Of a DNA stretch of 63,605 nucleotides, positions 989 to 63,098 are shown in pieces. Source of the stretch: a virus; the IMG/VR virus record IMGVR_UViG_3300030116_006045, positions 1 to 63,605 of that record; one strand, written 5' to 3'. Every line of letters begins with the position of its first letter. The first letter of the stretch is position 1. A program made the translations under genes and the position numbers. The notes under the pieces are model-generated. The model was not told the DNA's origin. It worked only from the letters and a program-made list of their open reading frames with translations, and did no database searches.

Positions 989-3900
989 GTGCGCGATGTG
1001 TCTCTTAAGTTTCCTGTATGGCTGGCTGGTTACTATGAAGACATGAACACCCTTCGTGGTGTGTATGAGGGTCAAGATTACGCAAGTTCAACCACTTACG
1101 ATAACCGACTTAACTCTCACTTTGGTAATCCTAACTCAATATCAACCATGATTGGTTCTGCTAGATCCAATGCGCGATTTAACTTTGTAGCAACAGATAG
1201 AAGCAACAGCCCAGATCACAACGAAGCACCCGCTGATTGGCTTACCTTCAACCCATATTCGTTACTTCCTAACTTCTACGAAGGACGCGCTCAAATGGTG
1301 CTACCAGATAGCATAGGAGACATAGCTTCAGGAGCTTTCTTAGCACAGCCTGTCAGAGCTGACTACGTTAGATATGCTTCCGGTCATAACACAAAGGACA
1401 CATATTGGTCAAGAGCTAATAATAACCACGATGTCGATATAGCCGAAGCTGGTTCACCGCAAGCGAAGAACATATCGAGTTATCATCAAACAAACATCGC
1501 TGGTGTGATGACTGGTGAAACACCTCGCGCTGGTGGTGCTGGGCCGATCTATGTGCCATACGCTTATCTTAGTCATATCACCTCACCATCAGGACAGCCT
1601 TTTTTCATTCATAGATTCAATCGACGAGTAGATGATTGGGTGGAGTTTGCCTCTATCGCCAACGATGGATCTGGAAAGAAGAAATACACAATAGCTACCG
1701 CGGCTCATGTTAATGGCGAAGGGCTTCACTCAAGCGACGAGTGGTATATTTTCAATGTGCAAACAGTTACTAAAACCTCGATTACTGTAAGTTTTACATC
1801 TGGTGCTACCTTTGTAGATATCCCAAACGGTGATCTCGACAATCTACTACCACTTGACCCAGGTGTGGCTATGACGAATCCAAACACAACAACAGCAACA
1901 GCTGTACACGCAATTGGTATTGGTAGTGATACATACTACTACAAAACACTCGCCGCTGTTAGCGGTGGTTACAGATTTACTTTAGATCCCGCTCGTCATG
2001 GATCTGGGCTTACTCAAAATTACACCAATCCAGCATTACAGGTGTTTTGTGATAAGCAACAGCTAGATCAAAACCAAACAGATGTGTTGCTTTACAATCA
2101 ATCATCAAGTGGAACCCCTTCAGGTTTTCGTGTTTTACCAACACAAGGAACTAGTGCTACATCTGAGCCACCTCTATGTAATCGACTATACATTGATGAT
2201 AATAGTAGTTCAATCAACATGATACGAGGCCCACAGTTTGATGTTGCTTCAAGTACTACAAGTTCTAGCACATCTGGGCCTTCAGGAACCACAGGAACGT
2301 ATTACATTTACACTATCAAAGTTAGAAGCGGTCAGCTGCCGTCTGATGTAACTATACCTAAAATTGGTGATAACCGAGCTGATGGTAATCCGTTTTACAA
2401 CAAAGCACCATTAAGAGATCTCAATGTGAATGATTACATTCAGGTAAAAGACAGTAGTGGATTCCTCACTACCCCAGAAAAAATAACAGCGATAAGCACA
2501 GGCGCACACGCCATGACAATAACTACTGATGCCACATACAGTGCTACAAGCACAGGGTTCCTTCGTTTCAGCACGTATGGGTCTTATGTCTTGAGTAGTG
2601 GTAGGCCAATTGACGGTTTATTTGGGTTTGAATCTGTAATGGTAGGTGATGTCGAGCTTAACGCACAAGGTAGCGATGGGGAGTGTTTTACGATAAGGAT
2701 GGCGACACAATCATTCGATAACGCCACAGGTGCAACACCAGGACACGCTGATCCCGTTTATGTTCTAAATGTAGGTTACAACAGAAACGACACTGACTTT
2801 GATCTGAACGAAAGAGGTAACATGGCTGGTAAGCTCCCAGCTGTTAGTCACAAGTTTAGACCGAAGGACGGTACTGGATTACCTGCAAGTAGAACACGTT
2901 TGTTCCTAGAATGGAATGGGACTACGAACAATAACTACACTCACGATCAAATATGGTTTGATATTGATGTTCAATTCGACTTCACCAATCAAAAATACCA
3001 GATCTTCGTAGATGGTACAGAGGTTGGGGCTGCAACGCCTTTCAATGCTAAAGCAGACGGTTCTAACTGGGCTGCTACTGATATGTACGGATGGAGTTTG
3101 GGTGTTCAAGTGTTTGATTCATTTCACGAAGCAAACAGCGAGTCGTTATACTTAGGCTACCCAGCATCATATAACGATCCAGGCACACACTCTGTCTTTA
3201 CTTTGGTAGAGCGAGCTGGGTGGTGCTACCGTCTTACTAACCGTCTGATTGCTAACGATGCCGCCTTCGCACCTAACGCACCTAACGCTGATTTCTTGAT
3301 CGACAATCTAAACCTAAAGAGTCAGGTTGATTCAATAAGTAGTTTAGAAATTGAGGTTCATGACGACGCTAACGAGCTTGGAATGTCTGCTCTTTTCAGT
3401 AACGCACCAGATTGGAGTATTCTTCTGTTTCGAGAGAATGATCACAGGCCAATCTGGAAGGGTTTGATTAGTGATGCTGACTTCTCTCAATCATCTTCTC
3501 AAAAGACAAAGGACGTTAGGATAAGAGCAAGAGATAGTTTAGCTGAAATGGAGTTTCAATTTCCATATTTCGATCTGGGACAAGAGGAATCAGGACCGTC
3601 CTTACAATCCGTGTATCGACAGTATGAAATCGCATCATACTCAAGGGCGTTTGATTTCGGAACCAGTAGTTTGTTGAATCTAAATTATACTGTTGGTTTC
3701 GATGAAGAAGCTAAAGATAGCAACGACCGCTATCGTGCAAGATATGATCAACGTATGCGTATGTTTTCCGCACACCCTATTCAGATGTACCTAAACGAAG
3801 ATAGTAACGGGCCTAACTTTGTGGAGGACAATTGGGAAGTGTCTCGAAAGATAGATTACATAGCACCAAGCGGCTCTACAAAGACGGAGATTTTCATGAC

Positions 3901-6900
3901 TAGCGATGGCGAAAACGACACAACCTATGCCGATAACGCCGACTTTACTGTGGGTAAAGAAATCAACATAGCAGGTATGTGGAAAAACAAGGGGATCCCT
4001 AACACTGGCGCAAGAAAATCATTACCTCAACTTGACGAAGGCGGTTACTTGTCTGTAACGCATGGGGGTAATAGTGTGGCTACACCACACAACGACTACT
4101 TAGGAGCTATAGCGATAGACAGTACTGGGACTACCGCCAATTCATTCATAATCGACAAAGCCTGGTCCAGATCCTTGAAGCTGGCTAAATTAGAAAACGC
4201 GAGTGGTTATTTGAAAATGAGATTAGAACCTATTAGTTCTAACAGATATGAATACATGGCTGGAACTACTTCTCAAAGAGAACAGGCTATCATAGCTCGT
4301 AATCCAGTATTGAGTTCGGCTAATGGATTAGAAGTAGTTCGGTTCTATGTTCAACCAAATGCGGGAGCGGCTGGTTCTTACGCTGCAGCTGCTAATCTTC
4401 CGTCTGAGGTATATACCTCATCAGCAATTACTTTTGAATCAACAGGCACCAGGGACTATGCTGTTGAGATCACAACAACAAAAACGGTAGCGAGCTTACC
4501 TTCCGCTTTACAGACAGCTTTGGGTAGTGGTGCTGTCGGTGCTGCATTGAAAGATATAGGAGATGTACTTGAAACGGATCTAGGATTTGTACACATAAAG
4601 GACTCGACATCATCATATCGTAACCATCATGTGAGATGGATGAGAGATATACCTCAGTCGCTTTGGTTTCAGAAAATCTTCGGTAAGATCCGACGTTACC
4701 CGTTCGGTTATACAGATACAACTGGGTTTTCTAACTGCGCTCTTACTACTCTTGAAGCTAATTTCAATACAGGTTCAGATACGACGGTTACTGTTGCTGA
4801 TACCTCTAAGTTCCCGACAGCGGGTGTTTGTGAAATATGGACATTAAACCCATACACACTGAATCTATTTGGTAGAACAAACGCTAGATTGCTAACCTCA
4901 TTTGTCTATAACGGTAAGACAGCCGGTAGTAACCGTTTGGACAATGTTAAGTTCGCAGATACTAATCAGGGAATCATAGCCTCAACAGTGGGTGAAGCCA
5001 CTAATCGTTACGTCGTATGTCGAGATATTAGTGGTGATTACAAACACATATGGGTGCTTTGGGCCGACATGAGAAACGATGGGTCAGCTGACGCTGATGG
5101 AGGCACTAGAAAGGAAGATTTCGGTCTTATTTACCCACTAAAACAGAACTACAAAGCAAGTATGGTTTGGGCTGCGACAGGACAAGAGTTTGTTGATCTC
5201 AAAATAGGTGATGAGATAGATATCTGGGCTGTTTCGGCGGATAAAGATCCAGCTACTACTACTGCCTGGTCTGATAATCCGACAGCTCTCATGATTGATT
5301 ATGGACAAAGAGGCACTAACACAATACGTCTTAGAGGCAACAGGTCAGATGATACAGAGACAATTACTTCATATCACAATTGGGAAAACAAGGCTGGTGC
5401 TTTTATCATATGCGACATGAGTAAGTTCTTCAATCTCAACACTGAAGCTAATAATGGTAGAGTCGGTCAGGACGCCGGTGGGCTTCGCACCCTCGATAAG
5501 CTCCTTGTTGAAAGCGAGGGCTTCCCTATGCTCATCGACAACTTTTGGTATCAAGCATCAGCAAATGATGAAACCGCAGGTAATCCTGTTCCAAAGGATC
5601 TAAATCAATACCAATGGCTTACAGCCCAAACAACACTACAACGAGATGTAGTTCAGACAGGTATAGGGGCTGCTACTCTTACTCAGAATCTTGCTGCGTC
5701 AGATACCGAGATGTTCGTATCGACTAACGCCCCATTCTTGAGTTCAGGTTCAGTGGTTATCAACGGAGATACTATCGCGTACACAGGTCGTGGGGGATCA
5801 CTCGCTAGTATTACTTTGGGTAGTAAAGGGGCTGGTTATCCAGCCGCCGGAGGAACCTGGACTACTACTGGTGGTGGTGGTTCAGCTGGTGCTGGCACTT
5901 ACGCTACTGAAATGGAAATTGCTTCTATGGCTATAAGTAACGGAGGTGCTGGGTATGGTGCTTCTAAGACAGGTATTTGGTGGGCAGACACAGGACAAGC
6001 AACAGGAACTTACACGACTAATGGATCTGGAGTGATTACTGCTGTTGCTATAAGTGGATCTGGAACTCGAAATGATTTCTATACATCAGCACCAACAATA
6101 ACTATCGATCCACCAACAGGACAGACACCCACCACTAACGCTGTATTCACTCCTACTTTAGCTACCACAGGTCGTCTAAGTACCGTTGCCATAACTAACG
6201 TCGGTAAAGGTTACGATCAATCAGGAGGTTCTATGATTACTGCGGTATGGAGCGGATCACCTTCAACTTCTGCTAACGCTCGGTTTGTGAATAACTCCGA
6301 CCAGCTTACGGGTGTTACAGGTATCGCAACAGCACATACGTCCGGCGATGCGGTACAATCAGCAAGCACTAATACGACGATGGAAGTATCTGACACATCA
6401 GGGTTCCCTGCGGCTATGGGGGCTAATCTGTTTAGTGCGGCAGGTATTGCTGGTAAAATCGAAGCGGTTACGACAGATGCTCAAGGTAACGAAAGCACAA
6501 CAGAATACGTCTTTACCTACACAGCGAAGACATCTACTTCATTCACAGGTGTAAAATATCGCCAGATCCGCAGCGGTGAAGATATAGATACCGCAGCTTT
6601 GGGCGTTATCAATAATGATGCTTTTACTATGAGTGGCGTTCCAACAATGAACGCCGCCGGAACTGTGATCCGTAGCTCATTAGGGTCTAACTTCCCAATG
6701 GGCTTCATGCTCAAGCTTGAAGGTAAGATAAAAACACCTAACGGTGGCTCATTTTACGAACATGATAAGATTAGAATCTATCAGGTCAGCTCACTCATCA
6801 ATGATTGGTTTAAGCAGTTAATTATGCCAGCTTTGTCTGACTTCAATAACGTACCAATCATGCACGATTTCAACGTCGATGGTAACACATCAGGAGCGGG

Positions 6901-9328
6901 AACTGTTGAGTCGTTTGGATCTGTATTAGATGCAAGGGGTAAGTCGGTATTATCCACTCTTAGAACGGTAGGTGCATCTTCCGGTGTTGGGGATGGAAGC
7001 TCGACGATTACAATGAACTACATGATGGGTCGAGACAATAGAATGGAGCTACGACCTAACTACAATGCTGGGCATAATTTCACTCGCAACAATCTCAAAA
7101 TATCTGATTTGAAAACAGGCAAGTCGAACACCTTTACTCACATTCGAGTGTATTACAACGGTGGTCAGTCCTTCGTGGATCACCCACAACAATCTTACAA
7201 TTCGCGTAATAGAGTCAAAGTGGTGAATGCGATAGAAGTCGCATCGTATGAACAGGCTCTTGCTATTGCGAAGCGTGAGTATCAGACAAGGAAAGATCCA
7301 GCTTTTAGTTTGGAATGTCAGGTTCTTCGGCAGAGTGGGGCGAGTCAAAGGGATGGCCCGATGCTTGCTGATGCTAAGTATGGGTATATCGCTGACCCAT
7401 ACGTTGTGCAAACAGGGCCATATTACGGTCTTAATCAACACGCAAGCGGTGGTGGTGGCACATTAGCCGTTGGATCTAGCGATGCTATCAATCATGCTTT
7501 TGCTACTCAATCAGTAGGTTACGGTGTTCAAGTGGTGCATATACCTCAAGGAATGCCTTCTGTAAGTGAGACAAGTGGAGAGGAACTTCGTATCTTTATT
7601 GCTGATGCTGTCGCATCTTTACCGGCCAGCACCAGGCTTAGTGATGATGCCGTTGATACTAAGAAGTTCAGGATATTTTTAGCGGATTACTCATTCGTAA
7701 ATAGTGCGTCTGGTGGCGGATCACTCGCACCACTGAAAAAAGCTGATCAAGAAGGAATAGAGGAAATAACAGTCAAGGGCAACGGTTTCTTTGAGATAGC
7801 TATACCCGCATCATACTGGTCGGCTGGTAACGCTGCAGGTTACAAGATTGTGCTATCAGTAAATGCTGACTACCTAAACGCAGTTGGAAGACACGCCGGA
7901 GGCACAAATTACGGCGGTAACGCTTTCGCTAATCAAAACTCAAGTTATGTGTCCGTATCAACGGGTAGTTTGCCTACTTTTACGAATGTGAACACAAGCT
8001 CGGCGTTTCCTTTGGGCATTCGAGATTATTCAGATCGAGGTGATCTCTATGTTTTCCGTAGTGTTTTGTACGCCCCACGATTAAGAATAACAGATGATGT
8101 GAATTACACAGTAGGAACTTATGTGACTTATACAGACAATCGTTTAGCGTTATCTAATCAGGTTATGTTTATTCAAAGTGTGGAGTATAGTTATAGTGCT
8201 AAAAGTTTGGATAGAACTACTTTGAGGCTTGAGAAGGAGCTAAATCGTATTCCAAGCGGTATAGCTGGCTATCTTCTACCAAACGTATTCGACGATAGAG
8301 GTGCTGGTGGCGGTGGTACTGGTGGCGGCGGTGGCTCAGGAGGATCTGGAGGGGGAGGATTCCCTGGCGGTGGTTTAGATGGGCCAGGATTCCCAGGAGG
8401 CGGATTGCTACCTCCGCCTGGGTTTGGACCGGACGGAGGTTATCTTGGACCGCAACAGGGAACATATACCGGACAGGGAGGTATTGTGGGTGAGCTTGGT
8501 TCTGTTAAAACACCGTCTTTGGGAGGTAATGTTCAGAGATTGAACAGAGACACAGGAGAACAGCAGTTTGGGCAATTAGGGGCGCATACTTCACCTGAAA
8601 TGGGTTCTAACAACATAACAAAGAACATGACAAACAAAATCAACGATACGATGAGAATGGACTCTTTAGTACCTAACGCAATTCAAGGATTACCAGGTCA
8701 AAAACCTCCTATCAAGATCGATCCGCGTATCAGAGCGATTGAGGGTATCGACACTAAGTTCTTGTCGAGCGAAGGACAAGCATCAGAAACAGCTGACGGA
8801 TGGATGCTACCTGGTGCTTCTCAGCTCGACGACAGTGAGGCTACTACAAATCAAGTGAACTCTCTGTCTGTTCAGGCTACCTTACCTACTGATGTCGCTA
8901 CACCAAATGTCGGTGTTACAGCCACAGTTTCATGTGATCTCGGACCCGCGAGTGATAAGGTCGTAGAACTAACCACTACTGTAACTTGCCCTGATACCGG
9001 AGATACATTAGAGAATGTTGTTGAGATTAGCGTTGCGAGTTCAATAACACGACAGCAAGTAGCACTTCTCCCATTGATGAAGTTCGATGCGGCTAACACA
9101 GCTGGTAGGAGCTTACAGATTACAATCACTCGAAAGCCAGATCAAGGAAACGACACAGCAGATTATTCTGCACTTACCATACATAACATACAGGTTGAAT
9201 CTAAAGCCCACAACAATCAGGGAACAGCGACTAATCAAAAGGTGCAAGCGTTCACTGGAACAGAACAAACAACCGACGACACAGATGAACTAAATCTCGA
9301 CATACGATCCGATGCTAGTCCAATATGA
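989..9328 (+). CDS. Giant tail tip / baseplate hub and host-attachment protein (about 2779 aa)
   Basis: This very long protein directly follows the tape measure, the usual place for tail tip or central fibre proteins (gpJ-like). An upstream TTG at 977 is possible. I prefer GTG 989 because GGTGA lies four bases before it. In order it shows a beta-rich N-terminus; a lectin/LamG-like region (roughly residues 620-740); a hub-like region with a WKGLI motif near residue 830; repeated Gly/Ser/Thr-rich beta segments (about 1560-1850); a second hub-like region (about 1950-2120); a Gly/Pro-rich linker (about 2445-2500); and a beta-rich C-terminus. It acts outside the cell in tail assembly and receptor contact. 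Its last 14 bases overlap the convergent ERCC4 nuclease gene. Domain names are inferred from composition and position. Confidence 0.7.
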   Translation: MRDVSLKFPVWLAGYYEDMNTLRGVYEGQDYASSTTYDNRLNSHFGNPNSISTMIGSARSNARFNFVATDRSNSPDHNEAPADWLTFNPYSLLPNFYEGRAQMVLPDSIGDIASGAFLAQPVRADYVRYASGHNTKDTYWSRANNNHDVDIAEAGSPQAKNISSYHQTNIAGVMTGETPRAGGAGPIYVPYAYLSHITSPSGQPFFIHRFNRRVDDWVEFASIANDGSGKKKYTIATAAHVNGEGLHSSDEWYIFNVQTVTKTSITVSFTSGATFVDIPNGDLDNLLPLDPGVAMTNPNTTTATAVHAIGIGSDTYYYKTLAAVSGGYRFTLDPARHGSGLTQNYTNPALQVFCDKQQLDQNQTDVLLYNQSSSGTPSGFRVLPTQGTSATSEPPLCNRLYIDDNSSSINMIRGPQFDVASSTTSSSTSGPSGTTGTYYIYTIKVRSGQLPSDVTIPKIGDNRADGNPFYNKAPLRDLNVNDYIQVKDSSGFLTTPEKITAISTGAHAMTITTDATYSATSTGFLRFSTYGSYVLSSGRPIDGLFGFESVMVGDVELNAQGSDGECFTIRMATQSFDNATGATPGHADPVYVLNVGYNRNDTDFDLNERGNMAGKLPAVSHKFRPKDGTGLPASRTRLFLEWNGTTNNNYTHDQIWFDIDVQFDFTNQKYQIFVDGTEVGAATPFNAKADGSNWAATDMYGWSLGVQVFDSFHEANSESLYLGYPASYNDPGTHSVFTLVERAGWCYRLTNRLIANDAAFAPNAPNADFLIDNLNLKSQVDSISSLEIEVHDDANELGMSALFSNAPDWSILLFRENDHRPIWKGLISDADFSQSSSQKTKDVRIRARDSLAEMEFQFPYFDLGQEESGPSLQSVYRQYEIASYSRAFDFGTSSLLNLNYTVGFDEEAKDSNDRYRARYDQRMRMFSAHPIQMYLNEDSNGPNFVEDNWEVSRKIDYIAPSGSTKTEIFMTSDGENDTTYADNADFTVGKEINIAGMWKNKGIPNTGARKSLPQLDEGGYLSVTHGGNSVATPHNDYLGAIAIDSTGTTANSFIIDKAWSRSLKLAKLENASGYLKMRLEPISSNRYEYMAGTTSQREQAIIARNPVLSSANGLEVVRFYVQPNAGAAGSYAAAANLPSEVYTSSAITFESTGTRDYAVEITTTKTVASLPSALQTALGSGAVGAALKDIGDVLETDLGFVHIKDSTSSYRNHHVRWMRDIPQSLWFQKIFGKIRRYPFGYTDTTGFSNCALTTLEANFNTGSDTTVTVADTSKFPTAGVCEIWTLNPYTLNLFGRTNARLLTSFVYNGKTAGSNRLDNVKFADTNQGIIASTVGEATNRYVVCRDISGDYKHIWVLWADMRNDGSADADGGTRKEDFGLIYPLKQNYKASMVWAATGQEFVDLKIGDEIDIWAVSADKDPATTTAWSDNPTALMIDYGQRGTNTIRLRGNRSDDTETITSYHNWENKAGAFIICDMSKFFNLNTEANNGRVGQDAGGLRTLDKLLVESEGFPMLIDNFWYQASANDETAGNPVPKDLNQYQWLTAQTTLQRDVVQTGIGAATLTQNLAASDTEMFVSTNAPFLSSGSVVINGDTIAYTGRGGSLASITLGSKGAGYPAAGGTWTTTGGGGSAGAGTYATEMEIASMAISNGGAGYGASKTGIWWADTGQATGTYTTNGSGVITAVAISGSGTRNDFYTSAPTITIDPPTGQTPTTNAVFTPTLATTGRLSTVAITNVGKGYDQSGGSMITAVWSGSPSTSANARFVNNSDQLTGVTGIATAHTSGDAVQSASTNTTMEVSDTSGFPAAMGANLFSAAGIAGKIEAVTTDAQGNESTTEYVFTYTAKTSTSFTGVKYRQIRSGEDIDTAALGVINNDAFTMSGVPTMNAAGTVIRSSLGSNFPMGFMLKLEGKIKTPNGGSFYEHDKIRIYQVSSLINDWFKQLIMPALSDFNNVPIMHDFNVDGNTSGAGTVESFGSVLDARGKSVLSTLRTVGASSGVGDGSSTITMNYMMGRDNRMELRPNYNAGHNFTRNNLKISDLKTGKSNTFTHIRVYYNGGQSFVDHPQQSYNSRNRVKVVNAIEVASYEQALAIAKREYQTRKDPAFSLECQVLRQSGASQRDGPMLADAKYGYIADPYVVQTGPYYGLNQHASGGGGTLAVGSSDAINHAFATQSVGYGVQVVHIPQGMPSVSETSGEELRIFIADAVASLPASTRLSDDAVDTKKFRIFLADYSFVNSASGGGSLAPLKKADQEGIEEITVKGNGFFEIAIPASYWSAGNAAGYKIVLSVNADYLNAVGRHAGGTNYGGNAFANQNSSYVSVSTGSLPTFTNVNTSSAFPLGIRDYSDRGDLYVFRSVLYAPRLRITDDVNYTVGTYVTYTDNRLALSNQVMFIQSVEYSYSAKSLDRTTLRLEKELNRIPSGIAGYLLPNVFDDRGAGGGGTGGGGGSGGSGGGGFPGGGLDGPGFPGGGLLPPPGFGPDGGYLGPQQGTYTGQGGIVGELGSVKTPSLGGNVQRLNRDTGEQQFGQLGAHTSPEMGSNNITKNMTNKINDTMRMDSLVPNAIQGLPGQKPPIKIDPRIRAIEGIDTKFLSSEGQASETADGWMLPGASQLDDSEATTNQVNSLSVQATLPTDVATPNVGVTATVSCDLGPASDKVVELTTTVTCPDTGDTLENVVEISVASSITRQQVALLPLMKFDAANTAGRSLQITITRKPDQGNDTADYSALTIHNIQVESKAHNNQGTATNQKVQAFTGTEQTTDDTDELNLDIRSDASPI

Positions 9329-10031
9329 ACTCATCGCGTAGATTTAGAATACGACGAGCTACTGTGCGACTAACACCGCTGGTTTCCATCAATTGTTTTT
9401 GAGTAGTGGATGCTTTCATTACATTTTTCAAGCTCCCTAAGCGAACTAATATGTCCATAGCTATACGCTCGCTAACACCAGGGACACCTGAAAGTGCAAG
9501 GATCTGGGGGTTGGTAGATGCCTTCGGTGTCTTACGAACAGCGCGAGCCGTAGTAAGTCGTTGTGATATTTCTTGTTGCTTGTGAACTCGACATACCCAC
9601 TCGACGAAGTGATCCATTGTGTCCACTTGCATGAATTGAATCTGGGGGAAGCGAAGATACAGTTCTTGCTTGAACTGTTTAATGACAGCATGAGCGCGAG
9701 CTATGTCGTCCTGTGGGCGACTGCGCCTATTTTTAGATGGGTTATACACCTTAATCTTAGAACCATACACAACAAGCATAGGTCGCTCAAAAGCTTCTAC
9801 CAGATCCGCAAGCTGGGCGTTGATTGTTCGAGAACGACCGATACCGAGAATAGATCTCCATAAGTCGTTTATTTCCTTAGCCTCGATGCCTATATCCCCA
9901 ACGATATAGTCAGCTGACTGCAGCCTTCTAACCTCAGCCTTACCGTTTGGATCGTGTTCCTTATCACCCAAAGCTATCAAGAACTTCGTGATTACCTTTT
10001 CATTTTCTCGATCATCAATTATCAGTGTCAT
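9315..10031 (-). CDS. ERCC4/XPF-type structure-specific endonuclease with helix-hairpin-helix domain
   Basis: This 238-residue protein begins with the nuclease signature DDREN and continues with GDIGIEAKEINDLWRSI, matching the acidic and Lys-containing core of the ERCC4 fold. The C-terminal third carries two helix-hairpin-helix-like segments (LSGVPGVSERIA and TSGVSRTVARRI), which bind branched DNA. Archaeal XPF/Mus81-type enzymes cut flaps, forks and recombination intermediates. Here it probably resolves replication or recombination structures before packaging. It is the last gene of the leftward array, and its start overlaps the stop of a small zinc-ribbon gene (ATGA). Confidence 0.85.
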   Translation of the reverse strand: MTLIIDDRENEKVITKFLIALGDKEHDPNGKAEVRRLQSADYIVGDIGIEAKEINDLWRSILGIGRSRTINAQLADLVEAFERPMLVVYGSKIKVYNPSKNRRSRPQDDIARAHAVIKQFKQELYLRFPQIQFMQVDTMDHFVEWVCRVHKQQEISQRLTTARAVRKTPKASTNPQILALSGVPGVSERIAMDILVRLGSLKNVMKASTTQKQLMETSGVSRTVARRILNLRDEFILD

Positions 10032-10230: not shown

Positions 10231-11226
10231 TTACAGCTGGACTGTGCCATCATATCGCCAGCATTTACCTTTGCACATACCTTTACCTGCGAACCATCTG
10301 CAAGAAGGCGTAGTTTTCATTTCGATAATAGAAGCTAAATGAGTACGTGTGGTCTGTTCTCGAAAGTCACGCCAATTGAGATCCTTGATGTAACCAACAG
10401 CAGCGTCTATCACCGCTTCTTTTTCATCCCCACTCATTTGAGCTGGGTCTGAGAAGTTTCGTAAGTTTTCGACAAGGTGTTGCCCAAAAGCTACCCTGAC
10501 AAAGTGTTGTGGGTTTTCAGTGTGTATAGCGTCTAAGCAAGGCATCATAGGTATTTGATCTGCGCTTACTACGTCGCCAAGCATAGTTTCGCCTATCTCG
10601 GTGTTGTTTGTTTCAGGTGGATTATCTGCGACCCATCTAACTAAGCTGAATGATGAGGTTTGTTTCTTGAATGGGTTTAGGTGCGATAGAGTTCGATCTG
10701 GTGTTTTGGGTATCTCATAACCAAGCGGGTCAGCTGCAAACCGTTCAGGGTCTATCACAACAGCCCATCGTCCTCTCTTTGGGTTGAGTGTGTTAGGTAC
10801 TCGACATAATCTATCGACAGTGCCTATACAATCAAGTGTGCTTAGATCTTGAGCCATTTCTCTTTCATATCGTGTAAGCTCAGAAGGCCATCTGTCGCCA
10901 ATCACAGGTTCTCTAAGGATCTGGTGAACGTGAAATCCACGACCTGTCGCTACCGCGAGAACTGTGCCATCTAATCTCTTGATTAGCTCCGCAGCGTCCC
11001 TCTTCACCTGTGGGTCATCATCACCATCAAAATCCCACCAGGCTCGGTCGATTACAGCGGAATTGTGATCGTAGGTCATCTTGTAGCCATTCCACTTCAT
11101 ATCGTTAAATGAGTATAAGCTGGTGTAGCAAGCCGACTTATCTCTAAGTGTGTTAATGATACGGTTGAAGTCGTCTTTGCTTTCGCACTTAGACCTCTTG
11201 AGGCCCACCTCTCTTGGAAATCGCAT
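10231..11226 (-). CDS. Archaeo-eukaryotic primase (AEP / PriS-like)
   Basis: The protein shows the three AEP motifs in order: a DxD metal site in WWDFDGDDD (about residue 65), the GRGFHVHQ motif (about 97), and TVDRLCRVPNTLNPKRG (about 137), which carries the third acidic residue and the basic nucleotide-binding strand. AEPs synthesise RNA or DNA primers for the polymerase. The C-terminal end has Cys residues (CRWFAGKGMCKGKC) that could bind zinc or an Fe-S cluster. Start ATG 11226 overlaps the upstream stop (TGATG); GTG 11229 is an alternative. It sits with a nuclease and a RecB/Cas4-like protein in the replication cluster. Confidence 0.85.
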   Translation of the reverse strand: MRFPREVGLKRSKCESKDDFNRIINTLRDKSACYTSLYSFNDMKWNGYKMTYDHNSAVIDRAWWDFDGDDDPQVKRDAAELIKRLDGTVLAVATGRGFHVHQILREPVIGDRWPSELTRYEREMAQDLSTLDCIGTVDRLCRVPNTLNPKRGRWAVVIDPERFAADPLGYEIPKTPDRTLSHLNPFKKQTSSFSLVRWVADNPPETNNTEIGETMLGDVVSADQIPMMPCLDAIHTENPQHFVRVAFGQHLVENLRNFSDPAQMSGDEKEAVIDAAVGYIKDLNWRDFREQTTRTHLASIIEMKTTPSCRWFAGKGMCKGKCWRYDGTVQL

Positions 11227-11623: not shown

Positions 11624-12450
11624 ATCGAGCTAACTCCTGTCATCAGTTCGGTATCACAGCTAACGGTGTAATCGCACCACTGAGTACAGAAGTATTCATT
11701 CCAATTGATAGGCCAATCATGATTCTTGATACCATCCACAGAAGCATGGAGATCTCTTTCCATACCTGATATACTTCTATTCGTAACAGGCTCTACAATA
11801 GCGGCCCCCTGGATCTGGCCCAAATACACATCGCGGGTCTGTCGCTTTTGATTGAGTAAAGAAGTAACGAACTTAGCATCGACGCAATCAGGAGCTATCA
11901 CAGCATAATGTGTTATTTCTTCGGTAGCGTAGTCAGGGTGCAGTAAAAGCATTCTACGATAGAAGGCCAGTTCTTTACGGAACCGGCTCATCTTAGAAGA
12001 TGTGAGGTTGCCTGTCTTGAGTTCTACTAAGATAAGACCGCCTTCAGGATGACGCCAAATACCGTCGATAATACCACGAAGCTCGCAAGCAAGCTCGTCG
12101 TCCCAAACCGAAAACTTCTGTTCCACACCCACGATTTCAATACCGTCCGGCCCCATATCTTCTTCAATAAAATCCATGAGTTCGCCCAGGGCAACAATAC
12201 CTTCGTCTGCTGTGATTGGTAATCGAGAGAGGTATGTGCCTGGCGTATCATCTTTCATTACGTCTTCAAGAAGCTGATGTATCTCAGTTCCTCTTGCAGC
12301 TGCAGGGCTTTTGGGCTTTTCCAGATCATACAATGCGATATAGTCCATGTAATACTGACGAGGGCATCTAAGATACGTCGTAAAAGACGATTTTGAAACA
12401 CGCAGATTAGCGTTTTCAACAGCTGGATCGTAACTACTCTTGAACGTCAT
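11620..12450 (-). CDS. PD-(D/E)XK nuclease, RecB/Cas4-like
   Basis: The N-terminal segment SKSSFTTYLRCPRQYY is typical of the PDDEXK_1 (RecB/Cas4) family. It is followed by RGTEIHQLLE with its conserved His, then GIIDGIW and LVELKTG, which provide the catalytic Asp and the ExK motif. Cys residues near the C-terminus (CTQWCDYTVSC) match the Fe-S cluster cysteines of Cas4/AddB-like exonucleases. It probably resects DNA ends during recombination-dependent replication. There is no cas1 or CRISPR array nearby, so a role in spacer acquisition is not supported. Confidence 0.82.
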   Translation of the reverse strand: MTFKSSYDPAVENANLRVSKSSFTTYLRCPRQYYMDYIALYDLEKPKSPAAARGTEIHQLLEDVMKDDTPGTYLSRLPITADEGIVALGELMDFIEEDMGPDGIEIVGVEQKFSVWDDELACELRGIIDGIWRHPEGGLILVELKTGNLTSSKMSRFRKELAFYRRMLLLHPDYATEEITHYAVIAPDCVDAKFVTSLLNQKRQTRDVYLGQIQGAAIVEPVTNRSISGMERDLHASVDGIKNHDWPINWNEYFCTQWCDYTVSCDTELMTGVSSI

Positions 12451-12938: not shown

Positions 12939-13108
12939 CCCTGTTTATTTTTATCCTTATTTACACTAATATCGCGTGGCGGAGAGTAATCTCTATCAGC
13001 TACTCGAAATACGCCACAGTGCATATTGCCGTTGATTTTATGATTATTGTAACCACACACTCGCTTTATCCCACAATTAGAACAGACGCGCAAGCACTTT
13101 CGCGGCAT
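12935..13108 (-). CDS. Small Cys-rich zinc protein (57 aa)
   Basis: It begins MPRKCLRVCSNCGIKRVCGY and has a further Cys at MHCG, giving a four-to-five Cys zinc knuckle with a basic, Lys/Asn-rich C-terminus. ATG 13108 overlaps the methyltransferase stop (TGATG). Such proteins recur along this array; function unknown. Confidence 0.55.
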   Translation of the reverse strand: MPRKCLRVCSNCGIKRVCGYNNHKINGNMHCGVFRVADRDYSPPRDISVNKDKNKQG

Positions 13109-15826: not shown

Positions 15827-15848
15827 AAACAAACCCACTGGGACCATC

Positions 15849-20140: not shown

Positions 20141-20311
20141 TCACGCTGGCTCAAGAGCCTTTTCACCACATCTGGGGCATATTCTCTTGATAGCTTTAGC
20201 GCGAAGCATACGCTGAGTAGCCCAACCACAGGCTCTACACCTTGCAGCTTCCCACTCAAGACCCAATGGATCACCGTAACAACGAAGCCTGAAAGACCCA
20301 TCCAGATCCAC
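20141..20311 (-). CDS. Small zinc-ribbon protein (56 aa)
   Basis: It starts at GTG 20311 inside the 3' end of the clamp gene (41-base overlap). It reads MDLDGSFRLRCYGDP, then CRACG and CPRCG, a classical zinc ribbon, with basic residues between. I prefer this frame to the longer open frame on the same strand, which lacks any recognisable pattern. Confidence 0.5.
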   Translation of the reverse strand: MDLDGSFRLRCYGDPLGLEWEAARCRACGWATQRMLRAKAIKRICPRCGEKALEPA

Positions 20312-46546: not shown

Positions 46547-46707
46547 CGTGGACCCTCACTCAAGAACATTTCAAGAGTTCGGATTAACAATTGTCTATCT
46601 ATGTCTCCAGATCCACGACGTAATCCAGATAAATATACTTCTAACCTGTGTTGTAGATGCCCACAGCGAACTTGAGGCAATTCAATATGTGCCACAGGTC
46701 TTTTCAT
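46543..46707 (-). CDS. Small protein upstream of the large terminase (54 aa)
   Basis: ATG 46707 overlaps the preceding stop and its stop overlaps the terminase start (ATGA). It reads MKRPVAHIELPQVRCGHLQH then a helical GSGDIDRQLLIRTLEMFL. The place upstream of terL is where a small terminase or its remnant often lies, but 54 residues is short. No family recognised. Confidence 0.5.
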   Translation of the reverse strand: MKRPVAHIELPQVRCGHLQHRLEVYLSGLRRGSGDIDRQLLIRTLEMFLSEGPR

Positions 46708-55269: not shown

Positions 55270-55485
55270 ATGAGCTGGCTTGAGCGTGTTTATGCCCAGG
55301 AAGGGCTGCAATACGTTGCTGTCCCAGATCCTGAACCTTCTATGGATTATTCGGGTCTAAAGGTAGCTGAACTACGTGATTTATTAGAAGCTCAAGGGCT
55401 TCCTACTAACGGTCGAAAGGCCGATTTGATTGCTCGTCTTGAAGAGAATAGTGAAGTGAGTACAGATGGCGAAGAAGAAGAGTAA
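55270..55485 (+). CDS. SAP-domain-like protein (71 aa)
   Basis: The C-terminal half matches a SAP motif (LKVAELRDLLEAQGLPTNGR...DLIARLEE), a small helical DNA/RNA-binding fold, and the tail is acidic. It may contact DNA in the head or regulate late gene use. Overlaps the next gene by 20 bases. Confidence 0.7.
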   Translation: MSWLERVYAQEGLQYVAVPDPEPSMDYSGLKVAELRDLLEAQGLPTNGRKADLIARLEENSEVSTDGEEEE

Positions 55486-55819: not shown

Positions 55820-56205
55820 TGGCTGTTACCACAACACAGATTCGTGATTTACTTAACAGACCTACGGGACTTGTTGAAGGAACAATCACAGAATACATCA
55901 ACATGAGGGATCGTGAAGCTACTAAGATAGCAAGAACTAGCTCATACAACATAGGAACGGATCACCAAGTCACTACGGATCTAAAAGAAGATTTCATCAA
56001 GGCTGCTGTATGCGTCGATTGTCTTATCGTATTGATTGATACTCTCCCATCGGATCTGGAGCCAAATCAACGCACTGTCAGTGATACACGGTTTCGAGAA
56101 CAATTGAACGCATTCAAAGAGCGCATGGCTACTGCCCGACAGAACATAGCAGAACCTAACGCAGCTGCCTTCGCTACGGATTCAACAGCGACCAGGCAGG
56201 AGTAA
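55819..56205 (+). CDS. Head-tail connector-like protein (128 aa)
   Basis: It is helical (TQIRDLLNRPTG ... EDFIKAAVCVDCLIVLIDTL), of the size of gp6-type connector proteins and in the right position after the capsid gene. The tail is Ala/Thr-rich. No decisive motif. Confidence 0.5.
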   Translation: MAVTTTQIRDLLNRPTGLVEGTITEYINMRDREATKIARTSSYNIGTDHQVTTDLKEDFIKAAVCVDCLIVLIDTLPSDLEPNQRTVSDTRFREQLNAFKERMATARQNIAEPNAAAFATDSTATRQE

Positions 56206-56207
56206 GC

Positions 56208-58124
56208 ATGACTGATTTTTATTGGGTAGCTACCGGCACTACCGCTACTGACGCAGCAGCGGCTGGTGGGTGGAGTACAAGCTCAGGAGGTTCAGCACAG
56301 TCGTCTTGGCCTGGCTCAAGCCCTACAACCACAGATAATTTTTATTTCGATGCTAATTCAAACGCCCCTTGTATATGGGGCATCGCTTCTGTGGAATCCA
56401 TAGTATGTAGCCTTACATCTCTTTTCACAGCTGGTATTCAGCTTAAAGGAAATGTGGCCCTAAAAGGATTACAATTGAACACACCTCTTACTCTCAACAG
56501 TGGAACCGCGTCTTCAACACTCACATTCAGCAGTCCTTTGAGTGGCTTTCGAGATTCAGCATCAAAGGATAGATTTGTTTTGAATGGTCAGAAGGCTAAC
56601 GTCACAGGAGACATTACTTACAAGTTTCAAGGAAACGTGTACTTAGATGACGGCCCATATCAAAAGATAGATCTCAATAGTGGTATCTTACTACCTGGTT
56701 ACAATGTTCCTACAAGCACTGTTCATGACAATGCTGATGACGGCTTTGCTCATGTTAAGGGGGCATTCATAACATCAGGTGGAACAGTGTCCAGATCCAC
56801 AGTAGTTCCTAACCGAGCTTTAGATTCAGCTAAGAAGTTCAAGATCGATACTACCACATTCACTTATGCACATACCAGCTTTGATGCTATGCTGTCCCAA
56901 TGGTGGTTTAGAGGTATTACTTTGCCTGTGTCCGGCTCTACGACATATGGTGGTGGTTCTCCAGCTTTCCAAGCTAAACACCACTCGATTGTAATCTTCG
57001 CAAGCTCGGCTGGTGATAAAGTAACAATTACATCGGGTCTTACTCTCGACTGTTATGATCTGGAGATTCGTGCTGGTGCTAGATTAGTCAGCTCATCAAA
57101 CGGAGATCCCGTAACAATCCGCACACAAAAGCTTCCCACGATTAACGGTGGCTGGTCTTTCGAGCCGGTAGCATCGTTTGAGTTCGTATCTCCCAGGAAC
57201 AACCCTGTCCTTCCTATCGTTCGTGGCGGAACAGGACTGAAGACCATAGGAACAGCTGGGCAGGTATTGAAAGTCAATAGCAGTGCTAACGCTCTTGAAT
57301 ATGGAGCTGTCTCCGGTGGATCTGGAACAGTAACAAGTGTTGCTACCTCAGCCCCAATCACAGGAGGAACAATTACAGCAACAGGTACAATCGGTATCAG
57401 CGCGGCAACGACAAGTGCCGCTGGATCTATGTCTTCGGCTGATAAGACCAAGTTAGACGGTATCGAAGCCTCGGCTGACGTTACCGATGCAACAAACGTG
57501 GCGGCGGCAGGAGCGTTAATGGATTCAGAGCTTACAGATTTAGCTGGCGTCAAAGGTGTAACAATATCTACGCTTCAAGTAAAGCCAAGTGAGGGTGCAT
57601 TCGCAAATGGAGACAAAACTAAACTCGATGGAATAGCTGCTAACGCTACTGCATACGCTGATGCTAACGCACAACAAGCATCTCTTGGTGTGGCACTAAC
57701 AACAGTGACGCTTGGCACAACCGTTAGCGGTTTTACTTCGGGTGCATACACAATCGCACCCTTGAACAACGTCGTGAAAGACGTAACAAGTGCGTGGGAT
57801 GGCTCAGGATATTACTTTACTGCACCCGCCGATGGGATCTATCATGTTACTTTCAATGCCTCTATACAAGGACTTACCACCTTATCACACGTTGCTATCA
57901 CTAGATTATACAAAGACACAGGCAGCGGATTTAACTTCATAGCATCTGGAAGCACCGCCAGACAAAGTGGTGCTGTGGCAGTAGGAAATGTAACTTTAGC
58001 CCTAAATACTGGTGATAAGTTAGCACTATATGTTTATCATGATGGGGGTTCCAGTAAGAATCTTCTTGGTGATAACATAGCACCAAATTACACAATGATG
58101 TCTATTAGGATGGTGGGTCTATGA
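56208..58124 (+). CDS. Tail fibre / adhesin with C1q-like head (638 aa)
   Basis: The N-terminus is beta-rich with repeats; the middle has VRGGTGLKTIGTAGQVL and SSADKTKLDGIEASADVTDA, a sequence type common to many phage tail fibres. The C-terminal 140 residues have the strand pattern of a C1q/TNF-like jelly roll (GYYFTAPADGIYHVTFNASI). It probably binds the host surface. It lies among connector genes, which is unusual for a fibre. Confidence 0.75.
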   Translation: MTDFYWVATGTTATDAAAAGGWSTSSGGSAQSSWPGSSPTTTDNFYFDANSNAPCIWGIASVESIVCSLTSLFTAGIQLKGNVALKGLQLNTPLTLNSGTASSTLTFSSPLSGFRDSASKDRFVLNGQKANVTGDITYKFQGNVYLDDGPYQKIDLNSGILLPGYNVPTSTVHDNADDGFAHVKGAFITSGGTVSRSTVVPNRALDSAKKFKIDTTTFTYAHTSFDAMLSQWWFRGITLPVSGSTTYGGGSPAFQAKHHSIVIFASSAGDKVTITSGLTLDCYDLEIRAGARLVSSSNGDPVTIRTQKLPTINGGWSFEPVASFEFVSPRNNPVLPIVRGGTGLKTIGTAGQVLKVNSSANALEYGAVSGGSGTVTSVATSAPITGGTITATGTIGISAATTSAAGSMSSADKTKLDGIEASADVTDATNVAAAGALMDSELTDLAGVKGVTISTLQVKPSEGAFANGDKTKLDGIAANATAYADANAQQASLGVALTTVTLGTTVSGFTSGAYTIAPLNNVVKDVTSAWDGSGYYFTAPADGIYHVTFNASIQGLTTLSHVAITRLYKDTGSGFNFIASGSTARQSGAVAVGNVTLALNTGDKLALYVYHDGGSSKNLLGDNIAPNYTMMSIRMVGL

Positions 58125-58467: not shown

Positions 58468-58469
58468 TC

Positions 58470-58667: not shown

Positions 58668-59191
58668 CTTACTACTGTTCAACCGCAGACGTAGCTCAAC
58701 GCTTAGGTCTTGATGCAGCTCAACGCACCAGATCCGCAAGTCGATTAGGTAGTGTGATCCGTAGAGCTACTGTTGAAATCGATTCCTGTTTTCGTAACTA
58801 CGGTCGTGATGCACCCTCCCGCGAAACAGCTTCTTCGACGTTAAATGGCGGAGTTAGTGCTGGTGCTACTACTATCACACTCGCAAGCGGAACGGGCTTT
58901 AGCAACGCAGGTAACGGTAACGTCGATGGTGATTCATTCAAGTGGACTGGTAAATCTACTAACGACCTTACAGGTGTTACTGGACTTAGCGCGGATCACG
59001 CCACTGGGGTCACGGTCGAACAGGGTGAGTTCGCTCATGTTATGCGCGAGGTATGTGCTGACATCGCTGCAGGTATGTATCTTCAAGATGAAGCTGCTTT
59101 TTCAACAGAAACAGCTATTCGCGCTCCGATCTATACCCAACGTGGCTACGAACTTCTATATCGAACAGCCAAGCTTGGGACGGTGGATTGA
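58664..59191 (+). CDS. Head-tail connector with inserted beta domain (175 aa)
   Basis: The N- and C-terminal helices (TADVAQRLGLDA ... REVCADIAAGMYLQDEAA) fit gp6-type connectors. Between them a Gly/Thr-rich module (ASGTGFSNAGNGNVDGD) is inserted, a kind also seen in the giant tail protein. GTG 58664 overlaps the previous stop. Confidence 0.6.
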   Translation: MTYYCSTADVAQRLGLDAAQRTRSASRLGSVIRRATVEIDSCFRNYGRDAPSRETASSTLNGGVSAGATTITLASGTGFSNAGNGNVDGDSFKWTGKSTNDLTGVTGLSADHATGVTVEQGEFAHVMREVCADIAAGMYLQDEAAFSTETAIRAPIYTQRGYELLYRTAKLGTVD

Positions 59192-60027: not shown

Positions 60028-60029
60028 CA

Positions 60030-61109
60030 ATGGCGGTCGCACCTTTTACTACAATTTGGTCGAGTCGTATAGATGGGGGAGATCCCACAGACCCACCAGG
60101 CTCACAGAACACAGCTTTCACAGGAAGTGCTGGGTCAGCTGACGGTAAGAATTGGAAGATCAATAGTAGCACAGGATCTGGCTACTACTCACTTACACCT
60201 ACTACTACTGCCTACACAATGTTCATCGGCATTTCTTACACTAACGCGAGTGATCTCCCCGCTGATGGGACAGTTCTCGCTGAGTTGGACAACGGCACAA
60301 AGAAGGTTCAGCTTCAGGCTGATGGGACAGCTACCGGACTAAAGCTCGTAGGCGCAACAACACAGTCGTTTGGCGATCTGGATCTAACTCGAACAGAGGT
60401 TGATTCGTTACCTACTTCTGTTCGTATCACTCTTGACGCAGCTGGTAACGCGAAAGCCTATCTGTTTGAGATTATAGAAGGTGATGATGGTAACGATCTG
60501 ACTTTAGCTGTTGCGGGTTCTAGCGGTTCAAGTGCAACAGCAAAGTGGGGCAACAATGACGGAGAGGTAACTTGGCATACCACTTACCTATGTACAGCTG
60601 GAGCGTTCAATCCTGATGAGATTTCTATTGCTGACTATACTACACAAACACTCATCCAAACCGCATTCTCTGTTATCGAGACACTAAAGGATAGTTCACG
60701 ATTTCATCTAAAGTCAGTCGATCCAGGCTCTATCTATTATGGTTATGATCTCAGCTCACAAATGATGACCCGCACAGTGCTACCAGCTATCGTAGTTCTT
60801 GTTGAACGTATAGACAGCCCTGATATGTACGCGCTTGCTGGTGTTGCCGCTGAATACACCTTTAACGTAAGAATCATGGTTGTTACAAAGGGAATCGACT
60901 ACAAGAACGCATATCGTCAAGGTTTGGATCTGGTCGGTGAGATAATGGACGAGCTTTACGCTAAGACAGGACTCAAAGCATCTGTGGACTCTCTTACAGC
61001 GCATCAGACCCGCCTTGATAGTCGAATGGACCCCGATGAACAGATTAGTATTCACGACATATCACTAACATATATGAAAAGAATCGATCTCCATCGTCGC
61101 TCACCTTGA
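60030..61109 (+). CDS. Tail terminator-like protein with N-terminal beta (lectin-like) domain (359 aa)
   Basis: The first 190 residues look like a lectin-type sandwich (GYYSLTPTTTAYTMFIGISY ... KVQLQADGTATGLKLVG). The C-terminal 150 have the mixed fold of tail terminators (VLPAIVVLVERIDSPDM ... GLDLVGEIMDELY). A fused lectin part could display a binding face at the neck. Role from position: before the tail tube. Confidence 0.6.
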   Translation: MAVAPFTTIWSSRIDGGDPTDPPGSQNTAFTGSAGSADGKNWKINSSTGSGYYSLTPTTTAYTMFIGISYTNASDLPADGTVLAELDNGTKKVQLQADGTATGLKLVGATTQSFGDLDLTRTEVDSLPTSVRITLDAAGNAKAYLFEIIEGDDGNDLTLAVAGSSGSSATAKWGNNDGEVTWHTTYLCTAGAFNPDEISIADYTTQTLIQTAFSVIETLKDSSRFHLKSVDPGSIYYGYDLSSQMMTRTVLPAIVVLVERIDSPDMYALAGVAAEYTFNVRIMVVTKGIDYKNAYRQGLDLVGEIMDELYAKTGLKASVDSLTAHQTRLDSRMDPDEQISIHDISLTYMKRIDLHRRSP

Positions 61110-61146
61110 TAAGTCGCCCGAATAGTGATTCGTTATAGGTGAGTCC

Positions 61147-62205: not shown

Positions 62206-62218
62206 TGAGGTGATTTAG

Positions 62219-62431: not shown

Positions 62432-62472
62432 TAGTCGGCCATGAGCCATAAGTAAAAGAAGAAGTGAAAAAA

Positions 62473-62817: not shown

Positions 62818-63098
62818 TCTATCAGGTAGCCCCGATCCTGTGTTCGACGTTCAAGGGGATTCTTCCTTCGGATCTGGTGGACAGATACGATGGGCCGTTA
62901 GGTCGTTGGAAGATGGAGTTAGATGTAGCAGTAGCTGGAGAAATAGCAGACCAATTGAACGAGTCAGCTCAGTCCAACAAGAAAGGAGCCAACCGCAACA
63001 AAGCTCGCGGTGCTGTGGCTCGTCGGAAACAGCGCAGAAAGCTGTATTCGGGAGTCGAAACGAGTGATTCGCTTAAGAGTATGATGGAGGGAGATTGA
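62811..63098 (+). CDS. Tail chaperone frameshift extension (gpT-like), part of a 208-aa fusion
   Basis: Reached by the -1 shift; it continues VIYQVAPILCSTFKGILPSD then LVDRYDGPLGRWKMEL and a Lys/Arg-rich end. It has no good independent start: the open part begins at 62799, inside the chaperone gene. The joined product is 113 plus 95 residues. Its stop overlaps the tape measure ATG (ATGA variant). Confidence 0.65.
   Translation, partial: GVIYQVAPILCSTFKGILPSDLVDRYDGPLGRWKMELDVAVAGEIADQLNESAQSNKKGANRNKARGAVARRKQRRKLYSGVETSDSLKSMMEGD

Follow-up and report, generated by a model that had tools for sequence, protein, structure and literature searches.

A non-polar octamer repeated about once per kilobase in a presumed magrovirus-like genome, and its possible tie to virus-encoded DNA-modification enzymes

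The stretch of DNA analysed here (the window) comprises bases 1–63,605 of the 64,951-bp virus record IMGVR_UViG_3300030116_006045, in which Pfam matches were found for a family-B DNA polymerase, a clamp-loader-like ATPase, a terminase, an ERCC4 nuclease and a PD-(D/E)XK nuclease. From this gene content, we take the virus to be magrovirus-like, that is, a virus of Marine Group II archaea (Poseidoniales), and its host is probably a marine archaeon of that group. No named magrovirus was matched in the comparison; the nearest named matches of the polymerase by coverage were haloarchaeal tailed viruses (~24% identity), and related polymerases were found at 75 loci in viral metagenome contigs. The window is strewn with one octamer, GGATCTGG, which is present in 52 exact copies (22 on the plus and 30 on the minus strand), the first starting at 1667 and the last ending at 62877, with a mean spacing of 1200 bp; one further copy lies at 64320, in the remainder of the record. 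A sequence-only reading of the window had already drawn attention to this word, reporting at least 50 copies about every 1.2 kb in both orientations, and the exact counts bear it out.

The abundance of GGATCTGG is not accounted for by composition or coding. Base composition predicts 1.6 copies, in line with the one or two estimated before, dinucleotide shuffles gave a mean of 2.2 and a maximum of 7 (n = 100), and a trinucleotide Markov model predicts 2.8. Synonymous-codon shuffles of the open reading frames (ORFs) reached a mean of 3.9 and a maximum of 11 (n = 300) against 51 in-ORF placements (one copy lies in two overlapping ORFs and is counted twice), so that codon or dipeptide bias had been rightly dismissed. 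Depending on the null model, the enrichment is 13- to 33-fold, which is the reverse of the under-representation expected of a host target. GGATCTGG is also the commonest 8-mer of the window, all other 8-mers with at least 20 copies overlap it, and the next reaches 19; the enrichment is therefore not one that many unrelated 8-mers have in common. A maximal-order Markov model, proposed earlier as a check, gave only a slight excess (52 copies against ~42 expected) because the 6- and 7-mers of the word already hold the surplus, and for so dense a word this test is therefore uninformative. Six reading contexts were found at the copies (GSG 16, xDLx 17, PDP 3, xQIx 7, xRSx 7 and RIWS 1), as the earlier remark on mixed frames and peptides implied, and 16 of the 22 Gly-Ser-Gly codings are exactly GGATCTGG. 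Two copies, at 40015 and 46607, had been called intergenic; they do lie outside ORFs of at least 90 amino acids (aa), yet both fall in ORFs of 60–90 aa whose reality is doubtful.

The copies are also spaced much more evenly than by chance. The coefficient of variation (CV) of the gaps is 0.56 against 0.97 for random placement, and such evenness was reached in 0 of 20,000 simulations; gaps extend to 3045 bp at most, where 5432 bp was expected for the longest, and only 1 gap is shorter than 250 bp where 9.5 were expected. Selection on spacing was followed through the places at which synonymous codon choice could make GGATCTGG, neutral usage being calculated on the assumption of independent codons. 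There are 114 such places, 50 of which (44%) are used, and usage climbs with the distance to the nearest other copy: 2/17 below 150 bp, 0/15 at 150–300 bp, 10/27 at 300–500 bp, 14/26 at 500–800 bp, 13/18 at 800–1200 bp and 11/11 beyond 1200 bp, or, when pooled, 2/32 within 300 bp and 24/29 beyond 800 bp. Over the same six bins the ratio of used to codon-neutral sites is 2.5, 0, 12, 14, 21 and 32, the first value standing for 2 used sites against 0.8 expected. The dependence persists when only ORFs of at least 100 aa are considered (2/22 below 300 bp against 23/31 at 800 bp or more; permutation P 0.002 and 0.0007). Four control 7-mers showed no distance dependence at P < 0.05, the one leaning likewise being GAGATCA, a GATC word (P 0.09), and the same was true of five control 6-mers in each of two genomes. 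Next to an existing copy of GGATCTGG a second one counts for almost nothing, and selection strongly favours a copy that stands alone.

The word carries no polarity. The order of the two orientations is that of a random series (27 runs, with 26.3 expected), and possible sites are used alike in sense and antisense (34/73 against 17/42, Fisher P 0.56), which argues against any Chi-like, primase, translocation-direction or mRNA-level reading; the Chi-like, packaging-direction and replication-polarity roles first suggested for the word are thereby lost. Taken together, the distance rule and the lack of polarity identify GGATCTGG as a selected, non-polar DNA mark that is required about once per kilobase.

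Two one-base variants of the word are in clear excess, CGATCTGG (14 copies) and GGATCTAG (13 copies); by position, the excess falls on position 1 (C 14 against 3.3, T 9 against 4.7) and position 7 (A 13 against 2.3), with none at position 8. CGATCTGG or GGATCTAG lies within 300 bp of only 10% of the GGATCTGG copies, where 26% would be expected (P 0.001), and the two variants behave as substitutes for GGATCTGG. A Vsr- or conversion-type drive was considered and rejected: one-base variants total 71 against ~60 expected and so are not drained overall, although none of the three variants at position 3 occurs (0 against 5.5 expected), and a drive would ignore distance, which makes it unlikely given the distance dependence of usage. 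GGATCTGG contains an RGATCY context, and GGATCA is neutral in the window (48 against 48.6 expected). Close pairs of GATC, TCGA, ACGT and GTAC are depleted within ~0.4 kb, each type separately, and where tested the even-spacing effect is type-specific with a reach of ~0.4–0.5 kb. As side observations, AGCT is doubled in the window (494 against 238 expected), and GTAC, though depleted, is spaced evenly (98 copies, CV 0.65).

Known dispersed sites of Escherichia coli, examined in 150 kb of strain K-12, do not follow this pattern. GATC (623 copies) has a CV of 1.00 and usage ratios of 0.7–1.1 by distance, Dcm sites a CV of 1.07, and Chi (37 copies) a CV of 1.06, so mismatch repair or Chi-type use alone does not create such spacing; a weak tendency towards the pattern of the window was seen for AGCT (0.7 near; 7/15 against 2.1 expected at 800–1200 bp). 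Among 50 genomes of the presumed host group (drawn from 67 recognised by a 16S pattern of Marine Group II and mostly titled Poseidoniales or related), the highest count of GGATCTGG was 104 in ~1.4 Mb, or 0.07 per kb where the window has 0.82, and a host origin of the word was accordingly rejected. Some of these genomes exceed the reversed control pattern several-fold (104 against 23, 46 against 4).

The closest relatives of the virus keep the same rule with another word. The group closest to the window (polymerase identity at least 62%), which includes the records G001, G084 and G085, keeps GATC and AGCT and, where the fragment spans the locus, has in common with the window its three DNA methyltransferases (MTases A, B and C, described below). 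Its enriched GATC word is GGATCA (109 copies against 37 expected in G001, 139 against 36 in G084, 35 against 9 in G085). In 17/17 further clade stretches, namely those with identity of at least 73% among 49 terminase loci (two of them being G001 and G084 again), GGATCA exceeds expectation and GGATCTGG is absent, while AGATCC is absent from 16 of the 17. GGATCA obeys the same distance rule, with ratios of 0.8 near another copy and 4.3 at 500–800 bp in G001, and of 1.4 and 6.0 in G084. At the 16 window copies of GGATCTGG that could be aligned to G001, the full word was found there in 0/16, indicating fast turnover.

Across 24 genomes of at least 30 kb, an unbiased scan of all 6- to 8-mers present in at least 24 copies showed a GATC word to be the most even one in the window, G001 and G084 (scores 3.7, 4.4 and 5.3), the other 21 genomes scoring 3.0 or less; all other words tested in the relatives were picked after the data had been seen. 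G001 also evenly spaces AGCTGC, CTCGAA, ACGT and, less surely, AGATCG, and G084 also ACGT and CAAGCTC. RGATCY is erased in the clade (1 seen against ~73 expected in G001) but permitted in the window. As a separate observation, G001, G084, G085, G083 and G006 have lost all or nearly all RGATCY, CGATCG and TGATCA sites but retain other GATC contexts, as though a GATC enzyme had been neutralised while host enzymes specific for hexamers still acted.

GATC has been erased from most of the relatives examined (0–2 seen against 128–290 expected in the GATC-less genomes and G092), and AGCT, ACGT, CTAG or GTAC are also erased in varying sets of them. Among the loci L008–L076 and the genomes G010–G032, GATC, AGCT, ACGT, CTAG, GTAC and CGCG are often at 0 against ~100–250 expected per 60 kb, in combinations that differ by virus, an extreme record of restriction pressure. 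Some depleted palindromes are nevertheless kept as on a ruler: GATC in L057 (23 copies, all gaps 313–1181 bp) and L056 (27 copies, gaps 262–1482 bp), TCGA in L049 (51 copies, CV 0.39) and also in L050, L076 and L045, ACGT in G001, and, in the distant contig G091/L307 that carries the methyltransferase trio, GATC (39 copies, CV 0.49). These palindromes are the extremes of many tests, and the relatives are not independent samples, as L049, L050 and L076 look closely related and several records overlap (L226 is G084, L141/L222 is G085, L228 is G001, and L365 and L399 are G001 and G084). A z below −2.6 was reached in 13/219 tests in the clade, 7/586 at other polymerase loci (methyltransferase-bearing ones included), 2/462 at MTase C loci, 1/313 at Mom loci and 0/445 at host-group loci. 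In simulations with hand-set repulsion ranges, pure mutual exclusion failed to yield the GGATCTGG or GGATCA pattern; GATC of L057 and TCGA of L049 required some added preference for isolated sites, and L056 was borderline. The rule that isolated sites are favoured and close ones disfavoured or indifferent may thus be wider in these viruses, with GGATCTGG as its extreme case.

Other repeated words were found in the relatives. TGCGCA and CTGCGCA words are rich in L034, L038, L041, L044, L048, L049, L052, L070 and others, with 135 CTGCGCA copies in 60 kb of G014 against 18 expected. They were rejected as even words, being enriched but not evenly spaced where tested (G013–G015, G024); in G014 their usage climbs up to 500–800 bp and then drops. 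CCAGTAGG (60 copies against 1.3) and TACTACAA (66 against 2.5) in G017 (L092–L094) and G020 (L123–L125) are perhaps repeat arrays, and in L157 and L229 longer repeats are densely packed (GATGTTCC, 42 copies in 15 kb; CAGATTGG, 31 in 14 kb).

Five putative DNA-modification enzymes are encoded in the window, together with a small SAP-domain protein (Table 1); of the 87 ORFs chosen in the window, 36 proteins were scanned with Pfam. The PF00145 match of MTase B spans profile positions 2–323 of 324, as expected of a C5 DNA methyltransferase, and the PF23859 match likewise assigns its protein to the DpdA family. In alignments judged by eye, the catalytic ends of MTase B are conserved and enclose a long middle of module-like stretches that are swapped among relatives, and MTase C has tandem specificity-like modules, one to several depending on the genome. 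In Bacillus phages such as SPbeta, multispecific cytosine methyltransferases hold several specificity modules in a row within one catalytic frame; MTase B appears modular in a similar way but belongs to another lineage, and here the adenine-type MTase C appears modular as well. An N6/N4 methyltransferase with tandem swappable specificity modules is not known to us from the literature.

DpdA inserts 7-deazaguanine into DNA, and since its gene directly adjoins the Mom-like one, the pair suggests a two-step hypermodification in this virus. The Mom-like protein had no match in the other relatives compared, and homologues were found in 40 other viral loci. In L317–L323, whose Mom homologues are 51–55% identical, GGATCTGG is absent from 6/7, and L322 has 3 copies in 14.8 kb (0.4 expected); L322 is also rich in AGATCC (34 against 6.6). 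DpdA or Mom as the sole writer was rejected, as G001 lacks both and yet has an even GATC word. The hypermodification site proposed in the sequence-only reading therefore gains from the DpdA and Mom-like neighbours and loses from the similar spacing in G001. A study of magrovirus diversity (PMC10160649) does not, in its accessible part, use the terms methyltransferase, methylase, restriction, DpdA or queuine.

Table 1. Exact matches of GGATCTGG in the window, candidate modification genes and the SAP-domain protein.
Feature	Coordinates	Strand	Remarks
Copy 1	1667..1674	+	
Copy 2	2000..2007	+	
Copy 3	4167..4174	-	
Copy 4	6023..6030	+	
Copy 5	6056..6063	+	33 bp from copy 4; sole pair <300 bp
Copy 6	6562..6569	-	
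Copy 7	8342..8349	+	
Copy 8	9500..9507	+	
Copy 9	9800..9807	-	
Copy 10	10917..10924	+	
Copy 11	11811..11818	+	
Copy 12	13250..13257	-	
Copy 13	14527..14534	-	
Copy 14	16041..16048	-	
Copy 15	17109..17116	-	
Copy 16	18621..18628	+	
Copy 17	19422..19429	-	
Copy 18	20302..20309	-	
Copy 19	21410..21417	-	
Copy 20	22412..22419	-	
Copy 21	24340..24347	-	
Copy 22	26283..26290	-	
Copy 23	26723..26730	-	outside chosen ORFs >=60 aa
Copy 24	27348..27355	+	
Copy 25	29010..29017	-	
Copy 26	30591..30598	-	
Copy 27	32753..32760	-	
Copy 28	33325..33332	-	outside chosen ORFs >=60 aa
Copy 29	34044..34051	-	
Copy 30	34861..34868	-	
Copy 31	35802..35809	-	
Copy 32	36548..36555	+	
Copy 33	37961..37968	-	
Copy 34	40015..40022	+	outside ORFs >=90 aa
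Copy 35	43060..43067	+	
Copy 36	44015..44022	+	
Copy 37	44450..44457	-	
Copy 38	44821..44828	-	
Copy 39	46607..46614	-	outside ORFs >=90 aa
Copy 40	47449..47456	+	
Copy 41	47927..47934	-	
Copy 42	49461..49468	+	
Copy 43	50029..50036	-	
Copy 44	52368..52375	+	
Copy 45	55324..55331	-	
Copy 46	56052..56059	+	
Copy 47	56791..56798	-	
Copy 48	57318..57325	+	
Copy 49	58728..58735	-	
Copy 50	60174..60181	+	
Copy 51	60926..60933	+	
Copy 52	62870..62877	+	
MTase A, N4/N6 DNA methylase	13108..14322	-	candidate writer; PF01555 E 9.4e-44; common to word-bearing relatives
MTase B, cytosine-5 DNA methylase	14483..15847	-	candidate writer; PF00145 E 1.1e-56
MTase C, N6/N4 DNA methylase	15869..17395	-	candidate writer; PF01555 E 2.6e-33
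DpdA family protein	24008..24796	-	possible further modifier; PF23859 E 4.4e-74
Mom-like DNA modification protein	24798..25415	-	possible further modifier; PF25680 E 1.1e-34
SAP-domain (DNA-binding fold) protein, 71 aa	55270-55485		in G001, G084 and four other records

These observations appear to call for a site-specific reader of several specificities per genome, indifferent to orientation and with a benefit that levels off within half a kilobase. The words with this behaviour have a GATC, AGCT, ACGT, TCGA or GTAC core, and since such restriction-type palindromic cores come with plural, swappable specificities, virus-encoded modification enzymes fit best. Our preferred explanation, to which we give somewhat less than an even chance, is that GGATCTGG is a dispersed, orientation-independent mark, selected at about one per 0.5–1.2 kb and tied to the viral DNA-modification enzymes. 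One of these enzymes (MTases A–C, possibly DpdA/Mom) would recognise, or load at, GGATCTGG in preference to other sequences, and one engaged or modified word would serve ~0.5 kb on its flanks; for example, a diffusing enzyme loaded at the word might modify neighbouring GATC before a host nuclease arrives, or the modified word might act as a road-block or self-mark with local reach. Extra copies nearby would then add nothing, while an uncovered kilobase would be costly. More tentatively still, these viruses may keep a ruler of modification-linked words, one per specificity, each kept at no less than about one per kb and not far above that, with ~0.5 kb reach and swapped together with methyltransferase modules; GGATCTGG would be the current word of the window.

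The methyltransferase link to the word is supported indirectly. Twelve window genes occur in at least two clade records and in at most four others, and these comprise MTases A, B and C, DpdA, the SAP-domain protein and seven more for which Pfam and PHROGs gave no useful family match; annotation of the eight besides the four DNA-modification genes gave that SAP domain, no other Pfam family and two weak PHROGs matches of unknown function. The switch of word between the window and its relatives is accompanied by different modules in MTases B and C. Moreover, L049 and L050, with the most evenly spaced TCGA, carry a cytosine-5 (m5C) methyltransferase, and L056 and L057, with ruler-like GATC, have a divergent N6/N4-type match that falls below the family cut-off. 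The earlier proposal of a methyltransferase target is thus indirectly favoured by the GATC-type cores, the methyltransferases shared in the clade and a word that differs where the specificity regions differ.

Several observations weigh against a tie to the modification enzymes. GGATCTGG was found in one genome only, the window. Ordinary GATC in the window is neither attracted nor avoided by it and AGCT words near it are not avoided, so a reader would have to distinguish GGATCTGG from plain GATC; gap length does not track GATC density (Spearman 0.08, P 0.59; 0.22, P 0.05 for RGATCY density), which leaves the loading-site step without direct support. The AGCT words of the window are less clearly even (AGCTGG P 0.006, CCAGCTG 0.12, AAGCTCG 0.12). 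The methyltransferases are only 3 of ~12 clade-restricted genes, a list that includes the SAP-domain protein, and no B or C module could be assigned to a word, as many modules vary among relatives. The two passing tests among 462 at the 47 loci around MTase C homologues both belong to L141, which is the clade member G085, so a homologue of MTase C alone does not bring even spacing. L076 and L045, with even TCGA, have in their records no match to the three methyltransferase families searched; GATC is moderately even in G003 (CV 0.81), in whose 32.6-kb fragment no methyltransferase was found; even spacing is absent from G090 in spite of its homologous m5C enzyme; and in G002, with one m5C enzyme, GATCTGG is enriched and its evenness weak.

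Other readings of the pattern have to be considered. A viral or host protein with an architectural, packaging or segregation role and no link to methylation might sit about once per kilobase at GGATCTGG; the even, non-polar and saturating coverage would suit a loop or compaction protein, the unconserved positions of the word are compatible with one, and the clade-restricted SAP-domain protein is a candidate. However, every genome has a number of even words that are independent of one another and have as cores such tetramer palindromes as are erased in relatives, and several unrelated architectural proteins would be needed, so that we consider this reading unlikely.

In cyanobacteria, HIP1 words, methylated and present every kilobase, have been proposed to direct mismatch repair (Elhai 2015, PMC4390886), and GGATCTGG might likewise be a product of methylation-directed repair, with words accumulating until every point is within reach. 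The GATC core, the density of ~1 per kb and the linked methyltransferases recall HIP1 as described in the accessible part of that paper, and usage saturates with distance as a repair model expects. Against this stand the lack of even spacing of GATC in E. coli, where it is a true mismatch-repair director, the failure of words with different cores to substitute for each other, though one type of mark would serve repair, and the absence of any mismatch-repair family from the 36 window proteins scanned (of 87 chosen ORFs); the repair reading is thus distinctly unlikely.

An exchange signal resembling DNA uptake sequences, by which word-bearing fragments are preferentially transferred or recombined and the word spreads evenly, seems to us improbable. 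Uptake sequences have no orientation bias, and Karlin et al., cited in PMC1939737, regarded the evenness of their spacing as significant; PMC1939737 itself, in the part available, holds them to be less even than a compaction signal would be, the 50 host-group genomes lack GGATCTGG at such density, and each virus lineage has its own word plus several independent ones. Equally improbable is pair-dependent restriction, in which host nucleases need two nearby sites and the spacing reflects repulsion only. The depletion of close GATC, TCGA, ACGT and GTAC pairs agrees with it, and it is strong for depleted palindromes in several relatives; however, close GGATCTGG sites are at about the neutral level rather than below it, isolated ones are 12–32 times above neutral, simulated pure repulsion yields 5 copies and not 50, and even the depleted GATC of L057 and TCGA of L049 (less clearly that of L056) need a preference for isolated sites.

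A polar signal (a Chi-like hotspot, a primase start or a transcript-level motif) is very improbable: a dispersed octamer is superficially Chi-like and its orientations seem grouped by eye, but the run count, the equal sense and antisense use and the uneven Chi of E. coli all speak against it. A compositional or coding artefact, for which one could cite only the 44% of possible synonymous sites that carry GGATCTGG and GSG as the commonest single peptide, can practically be dismissed in view of the codon shuffles, the six reading contexts and the control words.

The function of genome-wide repeated short words such as HIP1 and the uptake sequences is still argued, and to our knowledge it has not been tested whether the spacing of iterated words is itself selected. 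Uptake sequences (DUS/USS) occur at about one per one or two kilobases. HIP1 words and uptake sequences are the closest analogues of GGATCTGG, which fully fits neither definition. With HIP1 and the alternate HIP words (PMC4390886, accessible part) it shares an iterated GATC-core octamer at ~1 per kb genome-wide, an apparent linkage to methyltransferases and replacement in some relatives; HIP1 is, however, a palindromic octamer, whereas GGATCTGG is not its own reverse complement and is viral, and regulation of spacing was found for GGATCTGG, whereas the words "evenly" and "spacing" do not appear in the part of that paper available. A HIP-type word is further characterised by a methyltransferase specific for it or for its core, for which MTases A–C are the candidates here, and by one-base deviations that gather at its ends; those of GGATCTGG are in excess at positions 1 and 7 and not at position 8. 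DUS/USS of Neisseriaceae and Pasteurellaceae are similarly short, frequent, without orientation bias and, by one account (PMC1939737, accessible part), even. GGATCTGG is also evenly spaced in both orientations, but none of the 50 genomes of the inferred host group carries it at comparable density, and, unlike DUS/USS, words of its type differ among close viral relatives and are several and independent per genome. The orientation bias of Chi-type sites is absent. Palindromic tetramers, GATC foremost, are erased in most relatives, as described for restriction-site avoidance (Rusinov et al. 2018, PMC6286503, accessible part), yet particular words with such cores are here enriched and evenly spaced, the opposite of avoidance. 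Among the open-access matches listed, seen as titles and beginnings of abstracts and leaving most subscription papers uncovered, there was no report of evenly spaced iterated words in viruses.

Comparing used with possible synonymous sites measures selection on spacing directly: a copy is wanted if none lies within ~1 kb and is a matter of indifference if one is near. With small viral genomes, several words in each, words swapped between relatives, erased palindromes and named candidate enzymes, these viruses form a system in which the function of such words becomes testable.

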